From a virus, in the IMG/VR virus record IMGVR_UViG_3300017757_000210, positions 1 through 20,941 of that record: 20,941 bases of DNA; one strand, given 5' to 3'. Position numbers and translations under genes: made by a program. Below are positions 2,833 to 20,275 of this stretch, piece after piece. Below the pieces are notes generated by a model. That model saw nothing but the letters and a program-made list of their open reading frames with translations. It had not been told where the DNA came from and did no database searches. Numbering within the stretch: the first letter of the stretch is position 1; every line of letters starts with the position of its first letter.

Positions 2833-5800
2833 TTATTTAATACTTAAGTTTCCTCCAAACCCTGGATCAGAACTTATTATTTTATTTGGATCTCCTAGCG
2901 TAAATGATACAACTGGACCCCCATCAGGTGTATCTGAACTATTAACGTTAAAATCAATACCAGCTAATTGAGTACCTATATACCTCGCTCTATTGGAACC
3001 TAATGTACCACCTAAATTAAAATCTGATACTTCGGCTTGTTTTAATGATTGACTATATGCATACGGGTTAACTGATCCACCATCTTCATATGACTTTCCT
3101 AAAGAAGCACTTAAAGAGCTACTATAAAAATATTTAGCTGTTTTTCTAAATTCTGAAGGGCGATAATCGCATACGTGTAGCATACTACCAGATTGTTTCC
3201 AACCAGGCGTCTTAACTTTTATATATGTACCATCACTCTGTTTATATAATGATGTTTGAGCATATGAAGCAGCTTGAACTTGTTTAGTTGCAACTAACTT
3301 ACCAGTAATTTGAGAGTGTATGCTACCTTCATTAGAATTATCATGTGAAACTACAGTACTTGCATTAAACTGTTCAATTTTTTCTAACCCTTTACCAACA
3401 GTTTTAGCTGTTTCATTAGCTAGTACAAACATAGGTGAATTTGCGTTAGAGACTATTCCATCAATAGTAGTAGTAGCAGGAGCTTGCTGTTGGACTGAAG
3501 GTGATAGTTTAGCTACAAACTGCTGAGGGGTTACAGTAAACGATTTAACTACGGAGTTTACACCTGTAGTTGGTTGAACTGTAACTTTAGTTGCTGGTTT
3601 ATTTGGTTTACCTATTTTAGCTGTTATTGTTTGAGGTTGAACTGTAAACCCAATATTATTGACCTGTGGTTGTGATTTAGCTATTGATGTTGGTTGCTTA
3701 AATTTAACTAAAGATTTAGGGGTAGTAGCTATGTTTTGATTTTTAGTATCACCAGTAACTGTAATCTTACCTCTACCAGGTGTTTTTGATCTTTCTAAAA
3801 AGTGTGGTTGTATAACGACACCTAAATCAGCATTAGCTCTTGCAGGCAATGATTTTTTAAGCATAGTAAATAAAGACATATCATATAGCTTTAGTTCGTT
3901 TAGATAAGCCATTCTATCAGTACCTTTTGAATATTTTTTCCAATAAATTCTATTCAATCTTTGTAACTCATGGTACTTATCTTCAAATGATTCTTGTGCA
4001 TCTCCTATAAAGTTATCTAATTGTTGACCACCTATATGCTCAAATATATCTTTATTAGTTTGATCAGTAGGTGAAAAATATATACCTAAATTATTACTAT
4101 CTAACGCAAACTTCTCACTAGCTGGTGCTTCTGCTCGGGCTTCAGAACTTAAGTGACGCATTAATTTATTTTCTTGACGTCTTATTTTATTACTTGTATA
4201 ATTGTTCGGCCCTAGCTCCGGTGTATTGATATAATATGTCTCGTCTGAATAACCGTAATCTTCTTTATCAGCGTAATTAGTTGCTGAACCGGTAAGAGGA
4301 AATAAATTACTTTTATCCCAAAAAGTACGGCTTGATCTTTGATCAGGGTGTTTACTTATTATATTAACTGAAGAACCAGTCTCTGGTAGCCCTCTACTTG
4401 CTGAATAATGGTTTGCTTTTTGAGTTAAATTTAAACGTAATAGTAACTCATTAAATGTTTCGGTGCCATTATTTGAAGCATATAATTCTGGTGCGAGTGC
4501 GTGATCACGTAATGTATCTAACGATATTGGGTTTGCATAATACCTAAGCTCTTGCATTGAACCGTTAAATGGGTGACCGAAATGTCTTCCAGAAAAGGTT
4601 TTTCCATGACCATGTTGACCAATATACTTTGATGTACTTTGAGTAACATAACCACCAAAATAAGCTTTTACAGAAGATTCTAAACTACCTGACCATGATG
4701 AGTTTAATGATGCAGAAAAATAACTTCTACTACCTGTTACTTTAATACTGCATGAAACGGCTTGATCAATAGTCCCATAACCTGCTCTAACTGCGGTTAG
4801 TTCATACTCATACTTACTACTTGAATGATAAGCTCCATATGCTCTGTGGGGGGTAGATTGTGTATTTTTTCTATTTAATAGTACGGTCCACCATCCACTA
4901 CCATCCTCTTTCTCATTAGTTGATTCAAATGCTCTCACTATAGGTGTACTTGCTGAAATGTATTGATCAGAACCAGATATTACTAAACTAAAATAACCGT
5001 CTTGAGTAATACCGATTTGTTTACCTAACCTATTTTTATCTACTGAATGGCTCCTATGAAGTACTATACCTACCTTATCATTTACTTGCCAAAGCGATTG
5101 ACTGTATTGACCTGCTGTTGATACACCATTACCTATACTAGGACTTGGCCAGATTCTAAACTCTACTGCGTTAGGTGTTACTGCACTACTAGTCACTGTA
5201 CCTACCGTACCTTGATGAGGTCCCCATGATGTTGCAATTGATTGACTAGAGTTAAAATTTAAACAGTAGTTAAATCTCTGCTCTTTATGCAGCGTTTTTT
5301 GTCTACTCTTCTTACTAGACCCATACTCATAAACTGGTAATATATCTTCTGGTATACCGTAGCAATTTATTAACCCTCTGACACCTGCTGGTGTTCCTTT
5401 AGCCTTCAATAAAAATGGTAAGTTGTTAACTATACGTCTCCAAACTTCAGATTTTCTCTGGTTAGCTGTTAAAGTTTTTATTGAACTAGTAGGGTTGTTT
5501 TGCAGACGTATACCACTATCATTTTTGCCGAGTTTATAATACCATAAGTTTTGATTAGGATCACCATCTAATAAATCCATACCATAATTTTTACCTACAT
5601 GGTAAATTAAATCATCTGAAATACCGGTCCTATTATCATAATTTTGGTTATGAAAACGATTAGAAGTATCAGTTAAATGTCTAGCATAAGTCCACTGTAC
5701 GTCGTGAGCTTGTCCAACCATATCTAAAAATCGTATATATGTCTCGTTAGAATCTTTACCTGTATCTGATATAAATTCAGGTACTGTTTTTCGAAGTATA

Positions 5801-15006: not shown

Positions 15007-15840
15007 TTAGAAATATTTAGAGTTTTGGTCAATAGAACCCGAGTTTTTATAGGTTACCATTCCAGAGTGCTGATATTCCTCCCACTTTTCATTATATATC
15101 TTTCGCATAGTATTAACTACTTTAGTTATATACTGTGTTTTAACATCTGCCATTTCTCGAATTAGTATATAAAGAGCTTTTTTATTATATATCTCAATCT
15201 GTTCTCTACGTCTAAAAAGCTCTGCAATAGCAGCTGCTACTCGAATATCTTTCTTTCTAGAAAATATTACATTAAGATTATTATCCCAATACTCAACCAT
15301 TTGATTAGTAAAGTCTTTTTTAGCTTCTTTATATTCATCACGCACTATCTCGTTTGTAATATTACGTTTGAGATCGACTGCATCTAGTGTAGTACGTTGC
15401 TTCATCTTTTTATAATTCTCATTGTTATTATATATAAGATAATTTTTAGCTACTATACTGAAATATGAGTAAGCTTTAGAACCTTTAGTATGATCATATT
15501 TATCTATCTTTTCAATTAAGTATGCAACTACTTCAGCTTGAACATCAACATACGGGTCATCAAAGCAATAAAATTTAAAAGTGTGAATTATATTTTCAGC
15601 TAACTTCATAAACGGTTTATGAATATGTTGAGTGTATACTTTGTTGCGTAAATGAAATGATTCTTCGTTATTATAAGCTACAATAGCTTTTTCATTTTCT
15701 TCGTGAAAATAACCACGACGTTTTTTTTGCTTTGTAGCTTTTCTTTTATCTTCAAATTTACCATACCATTCATAAAATTGAGTAACATTAAGAGGGTATG
15801 AGTCTATTGTTATACTTGAAGTAGCTTGTGAATTTATCAT
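15007..15840 (-). CDS. 55: Late-transcription sigma factor, T4 gp55-like (277 aa)
   Basis: Residues about 70-150 resemble sigma region 2: FDDPYVDVQAEVVAYLIEKI, KYDHTKGSKAYSYFSIVAKN, then YLIYNNNENYKKMK. The Tyr/Phe-rich AYSYFSIVAKNYL stretch is the typical -10-recognition and melting helix. A C-terminal helical region (about 218-248) could be an HTH-like segment. In T4, gp55 binds host RNA polymerase and directs it to TATAAATA late promoters together with the sliding clamp. One such octamer lies upstream at 19902-19909. The protein is clearly longer than T4 gp55 (185 aa), with an extra basic N-terminus (KRKATKQKKRRG, about 32-43). The start has a strong SD (AGGAG) and overlaps the previous gene by ATGA. 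The family call is solid; promoter partnership is inference. Confidence 0.88.
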   Translation of the reverse strand: MINSQATSSITIDSYPLNVTQFYEWYGKFEDKRKATKQKKRRGYFHEENEKAIVAYNNEESFHLRNKVYTQHIHKPFMKLAENIIHTFKFYCFDDPYVDVQAEVVAYLIEKIDKYDHTKGSKAYSYFSIVAKNYLIYNNNENYKKMKQRTTLDAVDLKRNITNEIVRDEYKEAKKDFTNQMVEYWDNNLNVIFSRKKDIRVAAAIAELFRRREQIEIYNKKALYILIREMADVKTQYITKVVNTMRKIYNEKWEEYQHSGMVTYKNSGSIDQNSKYF

Positions 15841-17582: not shown

Positions 17583-17792
17583 TTAACCTTTTATTATTTG
17601 TTTTAATTTATCAAACGGCTTCGTCTTACCTTCGAAAGCCTCTTCAACACTATTACTATCATATCCTAATGCACAAGCTAATCGCTTACACACTCTTTTA
17701 AAGTCATGTATATCTACATTCTCATTTACATCTAATTCAACCTTCTGAATTTCTTTAGAATATGTACCACGAGTATAAATTAGTTTATCCAT
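17583..17792 (-). CDS. Unrecognised small protein (69 aa)
   Basis: A short charged protein opening MDKLIYTRGTYSKEIQKVEL, then a helical part (FKRVCKRLACALGYDSNSVE) and a basic end (DKLKQIIKG). It has two Cys residues close together (CKRLAC) but no zinc-binding pattern. I do not recognise it. It stops one base before the ClpP start, so it may be translated with ClpP and could be an accessory factor; that is position-based only. No SD precedes it. Instead it has the duplicated element (17801-17822) exactly 8 nt before the ATG, also found before the next gene upstream. Confidence 0.65.
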   Translation of the reverse strand: MDKLIYTRGTYSKEIQKVELDVNENVDIHDFKRVCKRLACALGYDSNSVEEAFEGKTKPFDKLKQIIKG

Positions 17793-17800
17793 ATTGTATA

Positions 17801-17822
17801 ATATACGAAAAATAAAATTAAT
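17801..17822 (-). promoter_or_regulatory. Duplicated upstream element, copy 1
   Basis: On the minus strand this copy reads ATTAATTTT, then a T-rich run, TTTTTCGTATAT, ending 8 nt before the ATG of the 69-aa gene. A near-identical copy stands at 18345-18365, also exactly 8 nt before its ATG. The two differ by one base and one indel within the T-run. Neither gene has an SD. The element could be a promoter or a U-rich translation-initiation site (for example an S1-binding leader). Confidence 0.6.
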
Positions 17823-17823
17823 A

Positions 17824-18336
17824 TCAAACTAATTTTATTTTTAATTTACGACTAATTTTTCTGATGCTTGTTTCGATAGCTTTCTTATCTTTTTTGAGAG
17901 TAACTTTTTTTAAACGTTTTTTAAGATCATACAACTCTGCCATGTGCGTTCTTTTTTGAGATTCTCGCTCACGTTTACTTAAACGTTTTTTTGACTTCTT
18001 ACCTGTTACTATGGTTGCTGGTAAAGTACCTTTTAGACTAGGTTGCTCTTTACCTTTATGGAATACATTACCTTCCTTATCAACGTATTCATTCATCCAC
18101 TGCCAACCTTTTGGTCGACCTGTTGGTTTATACCTTGGAGTAAATTTAGGAGGTTCAGTTACTTTGTTAACACATTTATAGCATAATGTAGCGGTTACAT
18201 TAGATCCGACTTCGTTCCACTCACCACAAAAATTACCTCTCCACCATCGACCTCCTTCTACACTATTTTGACAGATCATATACCTTTGACCGTTATCAAC
18301 ATAACTTTTATAAACTGTTTTAGATTTCTTTGCCAT
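17824..18336 (-). CDS. Cys-rich, very basic putative nucleic-acid-binding protein (170 aa)
   Basis: Four Cys in a possible zinc-binding order, C22, C37, C52 and C55 (MICQN, GNFCGEW, TLCYKC), fall in the N-terminal third with a Trp-rich stretch (GGRWWRGNFCGEW). The middle has PTGRPKGWQW (71-80), reminiscent of an AT-hook core (GRP flanked by basic residues) but without the usual second Arg-Gly. The C-terminal 60 residues are extremely Lys/Arg-rich and helical (KKSKKRLSKRERESQKR). This looks like a phage DNA- or RNA-binding protein; similar marine phage proteins exist in my memory without known role. Expression is likely set by the duplicated element 8 nt before its ATG, since there is no SD. 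Confidence in function is low. Confidence 0.7.
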   Translation of the reverse strand: MAKKSKTVYKSYVDNGQRYMICQNSVEGGRWWRGNFCGEWNEVGSNVTATLCYKCVNKVTEPPKFTPRYKPTGRPKGWQWMNEYVDKEGNVFHKGKEQPSLKGTLPATIVTGKKSKKRLSKRERESQKRTHMAELYDLKKRLKKVTLKKDKKAIETSIRKISRKLKIKLV

Positions 18337-18344
18337 ATAATTAA

Positions 18345-18365
18345 ATATACGAAAAAAAAATTAAT
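18345..18365 (-). promoter_or_regulatory. Duplicated upstream element, copy 2
   Basis: The minus strand reads ATTAATTTTTTTTTCGTATAT, which ends 8 nt before the ATG of the Cys-rich gene. It matches copy 1 at 17801-17822 in sequence and in distance to the start codon. No SD lies between element and ATG. See copy 1 for possible roles. Confidence 0.6.
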
Positions 18366-18372
18366 CTACCAA

Positions 18373-19701
18373 CTAACCACCGTACACATAACCTTTACCT
18401 CCTGATTTAGGTCGCTGTTTAGACTTCTTAACTTTTTTTACAACACGTTTTTTACGCCTTCTTTTATCGTTATCACTGTAAGATTTACCTTCTGAACCAT
18501 GGTATAATTCATGTTCATTAAGTTGATCTGTTGGGGCAGCTTTTTCTTCTTTGCTTTCTTGAAGTTTTAATTCCTCTTCCTTTTCCTCTTCTTCTAACAC
18601 TTCAATCCATGCATCAAGTCCCGTAGTAGTAGGTGCACTTACATCTGTATTAGTTTCAAGATCATCCATTATTAGATCTTTCTTCTCTAATTTAACACTT
18701 TCAGTTACACTATTAGGGTTAATGCCTAGCTCAGCTACTTTTGTATCCCAGTTGTCTTGACTATACTCTTGATCACTTAATTTAGCTTGATTAGCTTTAA
18801 CACGCTGCTTTAACTCTGGAGATGGTGCAGTCCATTCTGTTGGCATCGAATATGGTTTATTAAATTCCATCCCGTCAGGTACAGACATTTTAATATCTTT
18901 AGATCTTATTTGAGCAAATGCCATATTGGCCGCTATTACAAGCGCTATAGCTAGAGGATCAAATACAAATATTATAAGTAATAAAAACCAATTAACTACT
19001 TTATTCATAGGTTGACCTGTTGTTTCAGCTAAATACTTAAGCGGGCCTAATTCACTCTCTGCTTCATTAGATATTTCTTTATCTAAAAGTGCCATATCAG
19101 TTTGATTAATTGAATCCATTACAGCTTCTATTTTGATATTAATACCATCTCTACTAGTAGTAGCAGTAGATAACTCATTTTGTAAAGCTCTACGTGCTGA
19201 TGAAGATGATGTTGTAATAAGCTGTCCTGACTCTTTATCTATATACTGTACTTGCGCAGGATTAGATAAAGCTATTCTTAAATCTGAAATCGATTTAGTT
19301 AAGCTAGCTTTTTCTATTTTAAGATCTTGCTTTTGTTCTTCAAACCTAACCTGTTTTTGATTTAAAATCATTAATGATTTATCTAATAATTCTGATTGAG
19401 TAGCAGTTGATTGATACGCACCTGATAGAAAGCCGTATATACCACCTGATGTTATTATTATAAGTACAAAACACGCTATGGATAGGTAAGCACGTAAACC
19501 TTTATTAATAGTATCCCAGTATTGATAGAGTAGAGAAGCAACAACTAATTTTGCAAACTCTAATGATCCAGCCATAATCATAACCTGTAGACTAGCTCCT
19601 GCAAATAATTTACTTAATCCGTAAACAGAATAAAAAGCTGCACTACCAGATACAGCTAATGCGCTTAATGCTATAAGTAAAGGAAACAATCGCTTCTGCA
19701 T
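18373..19701 (-). CDS. Four-TM membrane protein with coiled coil and long charged tail (442 aa)
   Basis: Predicted membrane segments are about 5-27 (LFPLLIALSALAVSGSAAFY), 36-58 (SLQVMIMAGSLEFAKLVVAS), 71-93 (AYLSIACFVLIIITSGGIYG) and 236-258 (VVNWFLLLIIFVFDPLAIAL). A charged coiled-coil-like region of about 130 residues lies between TM3 and TM4. By the positive-inside rule its side is unclear. The last 180 residues are soluble, first acidic (EEEEKEEELKL near 369) and then strongly basic (RRRKKRVVKKVKKSKQR). I recall similar long membrane proteins in marine myoviruses but know of no function. Holin, superinfection exclusion or membrane remodelling are all possible; it is too large for a classical holin. 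AGAGGA precedes the ATG, within the end of the preceding gene. Confidence 0.75.
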   Translation of the reverse strand: MQKRLFPLLIALSALAVSGSAAFYSVYGLSKLFAGASLQVMIMAGSLEFAKLVVASLLYQYWDTINKGLRAYLSIACFVLIIITSGGIYGFLSGAYQSTATQSELLDKSLMILNQKQVRFEEQKQDLKIEKASLTKSISDLRIALSNPAQVQYIDKESGQLITTSSSSARRALQNELSTATTSRDGINIKIEAVMDSINQTDMALLDKEISNEAESELGPLKYLAETTGQPMNKVVNWFLLLIIFVFDPLAIALVIAANMAFAQIRSKDIKMSVPDGMEFNKPYSMPTEWTAPSPELKQRVKANQAKLSDQEYSQDNWDTKVAELGINPNSVTESVKLEKKDLIMDDLETNTDVSAPTTTGLDAWIEVLEEEEKEEELKLQESKEEKAAPTDQLNEHELYHGSEGKSYSDNDKRRRKKRVVKKVKKSKQRPKSGGKGYVYGG

Positions 19702-19886: not shown

Positions 19887-19901
19887 ATATATAATTATCT
19901 A

Positions 19902-19909: not shown

Positions 19910-20011
19910 TAAATTATATTATAGAAGAATTATTTATTATTATTATATATTATTAATTATTATATTATAAATTATAGAATATAATAAAAAAATAACGGAA
20001 AGGCAACTAAT

Positions 20012-20242
20012 TTAGAGTATTTCTGCAGTTTTTATTTGCTCACAGAAAAGAAATCGTCCATCTTTATGGAATACTTTATGAATATCACTACAGTTATCAC
20101 GTAACCATTCTACCCAGATACGTACCATTTTATTAATATCATCTGAATTGAAACCATGAGCTCTAGGTGTCATTTGCTGCTCAGGTATACTTCTATGTAT
20201 TACCCAATACTCATTATCGTATTTCCATACTTTTTTAGTCAT
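20012..20242 (-). CDS. Unrecognised small protein (76 aa)
   Basis: A Trp-rich small protein (MTKKVWKYDNEYWVIHRSIP, then DDINKMVRIWVEWLRDNC and a C-terminal DGRFLFCEQIKTAEIL). It has two Cys and no membrane segment or signal peptide. I do not recognise the family. The ATG has no SD and follows a short spacer with an unusually GC-rich patch. The AT-rich spacer begins right after its stop, so it probably closes the transcript that starts at or before Hsp20. The open frame, composition and spacing support it as a real gene, but function is open. Confidence 0.65.
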   Translation of the reverse strand: MTKKVWKYDNEYWVIHRSIPEQQMTPRAHGFNSDDINKMVRIWVEWLRDNCSDIHKVFHKDGRFLFCEQIKTAEIL

Positions 20243-20275
20243 AGTGTGTGATTGTTATTGACGTGCGGGTCAGCT

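Follow-up and report, generated by a model that had tools for sequence, protein, structure and literature searches.

Late promoters of phage T4 (TATAAATA) are short, lie near start codons and have no −35 box, and in this phage early read-through RNAs hide start sites that are exposed by the late promoters. In Bacteroidota, promoters of the primary sigma factor, σABfr, carry a −33 box TTTG and a −7 box TAnnTTTG or TAHHTTTG (PMC6847099, PMC7366714), and in probable promoters of Flavobacterium johnsoniae the 8-base −7 box is followed by 4–5 nt before transcription starts (PMC6847099). An early phage case of leaderless mRNA comes from lambda (PMC3160421), in Flavobacterium psychrophilum leaderless transcripts account for 5.5% of the mRNAs that were mapped (PMC9723704), 3.7% of the 5′ UTRs of B. 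thetaiotaomicron are shorter than 10 nt (PMC7366714) and 87% of the predicted leaders of F. johnsoniae are longer than 10 nt (PMC6847099). A literature search by title and abstract opening, mostly outside subscription papers, returned nothing on the element described below or on leaderless mRNA in Bacteroidota phages.

The DNA analysed here (the window) is a 20.9-kb virus record of 20,941 nt with its long ORFs on the minus strand, and it carries two copies of a promoter-like element, each directly upstream of a start codon. Like Bacteroidota σA promoters, both copies have two boxes, the last G of the −33 box being separated by 19 nt from the T of the −7 box (the rule for Bacteroidota σA being 19–20), as well as a TA..TT core and an AT-rich stretch near −18, but both lack TG at −6/−5, have TTTCG before the −7 box and use GTTGG or GTTTG as the −33 box. 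They resemble the promoters of leaderless mRNAs in that the −10 box lies only 7 nt before the ATG in both copies, no Shine-Dalgarno sequence (SD) is present and the AUG is predicted to be at the 5′ end; they differ from known cases in that several unrelated genes of one phage clade stand under one promoter class, and in that the 5′ ends are predicted here. Like T4 late promoters, the element is a short phage promoter near a start codon, but its sequence is different and its upstream box is conserved. The same boxes at the same spacing recur in promoter-like sites of Flavobacterium phage immuto (found in this analysis and not annotated), and a matrix built from them transfers to the window; unlike the window copies, the immuto sites do not have leaderless spacing (18 sites, 150 kb).

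An earlier note on this DNA had drawn the repeat as two minus-strand copies, ATTAATTTTATTTTTCGTATAT at 17822-17801 and ATTAATTTTTTTTTCGTATAT at 18365-18345, with one indel and a single A/T change between them, each stopping 8 nt short of an ATG (17792 and 18336), and we recovered both copies, their differences and this fixed distance exactly as described. No GGAG-like SD was seen by eye upstream of either ATG. The drawn part of the element is real, but two parts were left out of it, the −33 box and the final T of TATATT: alignment of the upstream regions of relatives gives a full element of AGTT(G/T)G, 14 nt, TTTCG-TATATT and then 7 nt to the ATG, such that an AGTTGG or AGTTTG box lies 14 nt upstream of TTTCG in addition to the drawn repeat. 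In both copies the stop codon that ends the preceding gene overlaps this upstream box, and the intergenic gaps holding the two copies are only 31–36 nt long. The coordinates are given in Table 1.

Table 1. Features discussed in the text; positions are those of the window unless a relative is named
Feature	Position	Strand	Remarks
Promoter A	18344..18374	-	AGTTGG (-33 box, 18374-18369), N14 with T-run, TTTCG (18354-18350), TATATT (-7/-10 box, 18349-18344)
Promoter B	17800..17830	-	AGTTTG (17830-17825), N14, TTTCG (17810-17806), TATATT (17805-17800)
Third, weaker copy	19978..20008	-	AGTTGC...TATATT; candidate only; score 12.5 bits, chance expectation 0.03 per strand
Predicted transcription start A	18336..18337	-	on the A of the ATG or on the base before it
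Predicted transcription start B	17792..17793	-	by the same rule as for A
Gene A	17824..18336	-	170 aa, unknown function; ATG 18336
Gene B	17583..17792	-	69 aa, unknown function; directly before ClpP-type gene; ATG 17792
Stop codon TAG of preceding 442-aa gene	18373..18375	-	overlaps -33 box of promoter A
Stop codon TGA of gene A	17824..17826	-	overlaps -33 box of promoter B
TGCGGGTCAG / CTGACCCGCA repeat	20242-20275; L005 1580-1589 and 2309-2318		

The core TTTTTCGTATAT was found exactly twice in the window. With up to two mismatches it gave 13 matches against 7.6 expected, a number reached by 4 of 100 shuffles, and weaker matches are therefore near background. The third candidate copy lies 89 nt before an ATG at 19888 and would be leadered. 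On the minus strand the T4 late promoter sequence TATAAATA is confined to two sites, 19909 and 14229.

By domain and family matches the window encodes baseplate wedge genes, a ClpP-type protease, Hsp20 and a DUF2061 protein. Neither gene A nor gene B has a match in Pfam, PHROG or NCBIfam; the four cysteines of gene A are invariant across 13 aligned sequences, and its structure model is too poor for use (mean pLDDT 60.5). Each of the two ATGs is the first possible start after an in-frame stop. Variable sites in codons 2–20 of gene B (14 distinct sequences) fall at the three codon positions in numbers of 4, 2 and 16, a coding signal that runs from codon 2 and supports this ATG as the true start; the corresponding signal for gene A (11, 13 and 18) is weaker. 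The phage, represented by metagenome contigs only, is marine and probably infects a Bacteroidota host. We infer this type of host because a CHU_C type IX secretion sorting domain is present in a phage ORF of a relative (L005 418-942, Pfam E 8.9e-10), upstream of the hsp20 promoter, and because the window is related to the Flavobacterium phage immuto.

Relatives of the window phage conserve both the element and its position. A first alignment comprised 13 distinct upstream rows for gene A and 14 for gene B, in which the aligned blocks read AGTTGG (gene A) or AGTTTG (gene B) followed 14 nt on by TTTCGTATATT, and the upstream box was about as conserved as the T-run. For gene B the letters between TATATT and the ATG vary, and the length of this stretch is 7 nt in 13 of the 14 rows. 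Because the gene A rows had been chosen with a pattern that holds the element, the comparison was repeated by protein homology at 26 loci, several of them near-identical (gene A in 20, 19 of these with the start region, and gene B in 21). TTTCGTATATT lies 7 nt before the ATG of gene A in 18 of the 19 loci, and the element precedes gene B in 20 of 21, at 7 nt in 19 and at 6 nt in one (L024). The repeat also brought in a counter-example, L026 (ClpP identity 63%), which is the sole exception for both genes: here gene A, with AGTTGG and a variant TATATT that lies 23 nt upstream of the ATG, is leadered, gene B has no promoter directly upstream, and an extra ORF between the two genes has a variant copy 9 nt upstream, outside the 5–7 nt class. 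The promoter-on-ATG layout is therefore not universal.

Several placements of the element indicate that it acts in DNA. In a distant relative (L042) it is found at 4982-4992, 26 nt before a tRNA-Leu gene (5019-5105), and in 8 relatives it lies about 89 nt before the ATG of hsp20, a gene with an SD of its own. In the first 150 of the 160 kb of phage immuto, 18 coding-strand sites match TTTTCGTATATT with at most one mismatch and none does so on the other strand, while the reversed control of TTTTCGTATATT gave one coding-strand site. Fifteen of the 18 lie 15–34 nt before annotated starts and the remaining three at 58, 68 and 126 nt; all are at least 15 nt from the next annotated start, and leaderless spacing is found in none. 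A scoring matrix trained on 32 immuto sites alone and then applied to the window ranked promoter A first, with 31.6 bits; the maximum over 40 randomised versions of the window (first-order Markov) was 16.3. Promoter B ranked second with 15.75 bits (0.03 expected per strand), which on its own is at the edge of chance when compared with that maximum. The further copies that the earlier note proposed to look for thus exist in relatives, in immuto and before a tRNA gene, and their placement is not random, which supports the first of its two suggestions, a promoter class other than TATAAATA.

The promoter also behaves as a module, since it stands before different genes in different relatives. In the 8 relatives with hsp20, the promoter and a long leader precede that gene and a 76-aa gene (gene E) lies further on; in L024, which has no detectable hsp20 and DUF2061, the promoter is found 6 nt before gene E; and in L026 a variant of it precedes the extra ORF. 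A translation signal bound to its gene would not be expected to move in this way. The repeat is best read as a promoter and not as a U-rich translation leader. We consider it likely that each copy is a promoter at which host RNA polymerase starts at the ATG or 1 nt before it, with genes A and B leaderless. The promoter fills the short intergenic gap, its −33 box lying on the upstream stop codon and TATATT ending 7 nt before the ATG, and the RNA polymerase of a Bacteroidota host would initiate on the start codon or one base before, so that genes A and B would be expressed from leaderless mRNAs for which neither an SD nor a leader is needed. The class is common to many phages, mostly at leadered distances, and in this clade it is set against the ATGs of several different genes.

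Other features were seen in the window and its relatives. The hsp20 mRNA leader is highly conserved and has a strong SD, AAGGAGA, which is unusual for Bacteroidota (L005 1561-1650, and the equivalent position in 7 relatives); three of the eight leaders were folded, and their folding is hardly better than that of shuffles (z −0.7 to −1.0). The inverted repeat TGCGGGTCAG / CTGACCCGCA flanks the hsp20-DUF2061 pair in L005, L010, L011 and L021. Its left half alone is present in L012, L016, L019 and L020, and its right half alone in L017, the sequence of which begins inside hsp20; in L024, hsp20, DUF2061 and the repeat were all not found. It is possible that hsp20-DUF2061 is a cassette inserted next to the promoter. 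In L033 (8108-8400; G008 48108) a promoter copy is followed by a stretch of about 240 nt, with no ORF starting within 150 nt, similar sequence is present near 7321 in L186, and the stretch has no Rfam match; it might be an untranslated RNA. A permuted tmRNA gene is also found in these two relatives (L033 14711-15053; L186 409-750, minus strand), reported by ARAGORN as tmRNA* with the tag GEHVEMAMAA and matching Rfam RF04321 with 55.7 and 66.4 bits (gathering score 47).

The alternative that survives best concerns the polymerase: the element might be read by a sigma factor that the phage encodes or by a polymerase that it modifies, and not by plain host σA. Such a reading keeps the leaderless output, and its odds overlap those of the explanation given above; we regard it as possible but lean against it. 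The box spacing speaks for the host. In 508 kb of host-type DNA, taken from 70 of the 80 loci listed in a genome scan and with the selected sites excluded, TTTG-N-TAHHTTTG had 15 and 17 matches at spacers of 19 and 20 and only 1–6 at ten other spacers (the scan gave at least 120 records, and those 70 are titled Bacteroidota, Chlorobiota, Ignavibacteria or Rhodothermales). The −33 box of promoter B, GTTTG, contains the host TTTG, and that of promoter A, GTTGG, is one base off. The host −7 box TAHHTTTG, with T at −6 and G at −5, is found in neither copy (A has TATATTTA and B has TATATTAT), and among 112 phage sites G−5 is present in 16% and T−6 in 34%, whereas both bases are near-invariant in host promoters.

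The added TTTCG points in the same direction as these missing bases. It is an addition relative to the host consensus, and we do not claim it as part of that consensus, given that in 31 Bacteroidota genomes TTTCGTANNTTTG is no more frequent than its reversed control (173 vs 195); in 31 Bacillota genomes the counts were 38 vs 92 reversed, a depletion stronger than in Bacteroidota (odds ratio 2.1). Enrichment of the element in Bacteroidota genomes was likewise rejected: the form TTTG-N14-TTTCGTATATTTG was found in 1 of 198 Bacteroidota genomes vs 3 of 199 Bacillota genomes (a sample around a Macrococcoides genome), seeds included, and GTTGG-N14-TTTCGTATATT in 1 of 296 Bacteroidota genomes and in none of 5 in a smaller sample. 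These frequencies and the low share of G−5 weaken the reading by host σA. Either TTTCG and the −33 box make the element acceptable to host σA, or a factor of the phage takes part.

An ORF at 15007-15840 is a weak candidate for such a factor, as a gp55-type sigma factor that it resembles by eye. It has relatives in immuto and in Microcystis phage Mel-JY01, and one of the 11 members of its alignment (A1) matches PHROG 234, late sigma transcription factor (E 0.0044). Against this, a profile comparison with T4 gp55 gave a probability of 4% (E 0.0098), no PDB sequence matched at E up to 1, and a poor model (mean pLDDT 60) gave no fold match (best E 1.8). Mel-JY01 (L367, PP395634) also carries relatives of ClpP and of the baseplate wedge gene, in the same order with this ORF as in the window, and a gene named 'major paralogous domain'. 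This domain is known from Bacteroidota and Fibrobacterota, and the stated cyanobacterial host of Mel-JY01 may deserve a check.

A second alternative leaves the promoter in place and moves the transcription starts: the main starts would lie further upstream or downstream, genes A and B would be translated mainly from read-through mRNA, and the 7 nt would reflect genome compaction only. The co-directional main genes, gaps into which a promoter just fits and the L026 variant copy 9 nt from an ORF are all in keeping with it. The distances from TATATT to the ATG argue otherwise. A scan of viral sequences for GTTKG-N14-TTTCGTATATT gave at least 120 stretches, and 119 distinct sites among the matches listed were measured to the first ATG from which an ORF of at least 40 aa, or an open-ended one of 20 aa, begins. 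Among these 119 listed sites, 15 are at 5–7 nt and 92 at 14 nt or more, none is at 0–4 or 8–13 nt, and 12 have no ORF start within 150 nt. Spacing is bimodal, and the leaderless-spaced class is distinct from the leadered one, although compaction would permit sites at 8–13 nt. Of the 15 sites at 5–7 nt, four belong to gene A, gene B or primase C in the window's clade.

Two complete scans gave a similar picture, with an ATG at N5–7 in 78 stretches vs N9–11 in 12. An ORF of at least 40 aa, or one running off the contig, is opened at 56 of 80 sites vs 5 of 12, and gene A makes up 17 of those 56; rows dropped from the N5–7 scan were a 16-site cluster, judged by eye to be a chance match within a coding region, and 7 sites with ORFs under 20 aa. 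The host-like pattern TTTG-N14-TTTCGTATATTTG at 119 bacterial sites gave 4 at 5–7 nt and 5 at 11–13 nt, the remainder being at 17 nt or more or without an ORF (28), so the clean 8–13 nt gap of the phage sites is absent from these bacterial loci.

Leaderless spacing is common in the window's clade. When relaxed forms of the promoter are counted as well, the genes at 5–7 nt are A, B, the primase-like C, an M23 peptidase (D), gene E in L024 and a UvdE endonuclease (F), and the sites without leaderless spacing are those before hsp20 (at 89 nt), before the gene at G008 38003 (30 nt) and before the untranslated stretch at G008 48108. This amounts to 6 of 9 sites (6 of 10 with the candidate at 19978) vs 11 of 114 sites of other phages (Fisher p 0.0002, post hoc for 6/9 vs 11/114). 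Per contig, and on the strand of the other copies only, leaderless spacing is found at 4 of 7 sites in G008 and 4 of 4 in G011; three relaxed opposite-strand matches (one in G008 and two in G011), none of them followed by an ORF start within 150 nt, were set aside as chance.

The 7-nt distance between TATATT and the ATG, together with the 4–5 nt rule of F. johnsoniae, places the predicted start on the A of the ATG or on the preceding T, and by this analogy the mRNAs of A and B should begin at the AUG or 1 nt before it. Under a rigid 4–5 nt rule the start of primase C, with its 5-nt spacing, would fall inside the AUG. The earlier note was right that the distance to the ATG matters; it did not draw the predicted consequence, namely transcription starting on the start codon.

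Folding predictions bear on the read-through alternative as well. In read-through RNA the AUG of gene A is predicted to be paired with a probability of at least 0.90 in 13 of 13 distinct rows, and that of gene B with 0.43–0.99 in 14 rows, so both AUGs may be silenced there, in prediction only. Joining the upstream half of the window's gene A in silico to 69 foreign phage start regions gave energies at or below the native one in 27.5% of cases, with a range of 1.4% to 85.5% over 12 gene A rows. Since swapped start regions fold about as well, we rejected the start-codon hairpin as a selected feature; in these models it would be mostly a by-product of the promoter sequence, with no special coding sequence needed. 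AUG pairing in other phages has a median of 0.85 at leaderless-spaced sites vs 0.57 at leadered ones (30 and 76 sites; p 0.006), a difference that may have the same trivial cause as the gene A hairpin. The predicted hiding of the AUG of gene A still stands against translation from read-through mRNA, even if it follows from the promoter itself and not from a matched coding sequence, and with the empty 8–13 nt interval it makes this second alternative improbable.

The weakest alternative, raised by the earlier note, is that the T-run and CGTATAT act in the mRNA as a U-rich translation-initiation leader (e.g. by S1 binding), and it is highly improbable: starts without an SD, a T-run and a constant distance would suit it, but the element precedes a tRNA gene, lies far from the ATG of hsp20 and mostly at leadered distances in immuto, and has an upstream box about as well kept as the T-run, which is itself not a constant part of the element class in other phages.

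Returning to promoters that start transcription on the ATG, one may go further and suppose that GTTKG-N14-TTTCG-TATATT is a phage-specific class, read by a phage-made or phage-altered polymerase and used as a portable module on start codons, which in one marine T4-like clade gives a mainly leaderless output for hosts that hardly use SDs, with the AUG hidden in read-through RNA. As a whole we think this rather unlikely. The parts of the system are ordinary, their arrangement is uncommon and the prediction is testable. Leaderless mRNAs are a small minority in the Bacteroidota that have been mapped, and if this class routinely makes leaderless mRNA, it would provide natural, sequence-defined cases for asking how ribosomes that largely ignore the SD initiate on a bare AUG. 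The element also serves as a simple rule by which to predict transcription starts and to correct gene starts in similar phages known only from metagenomes.
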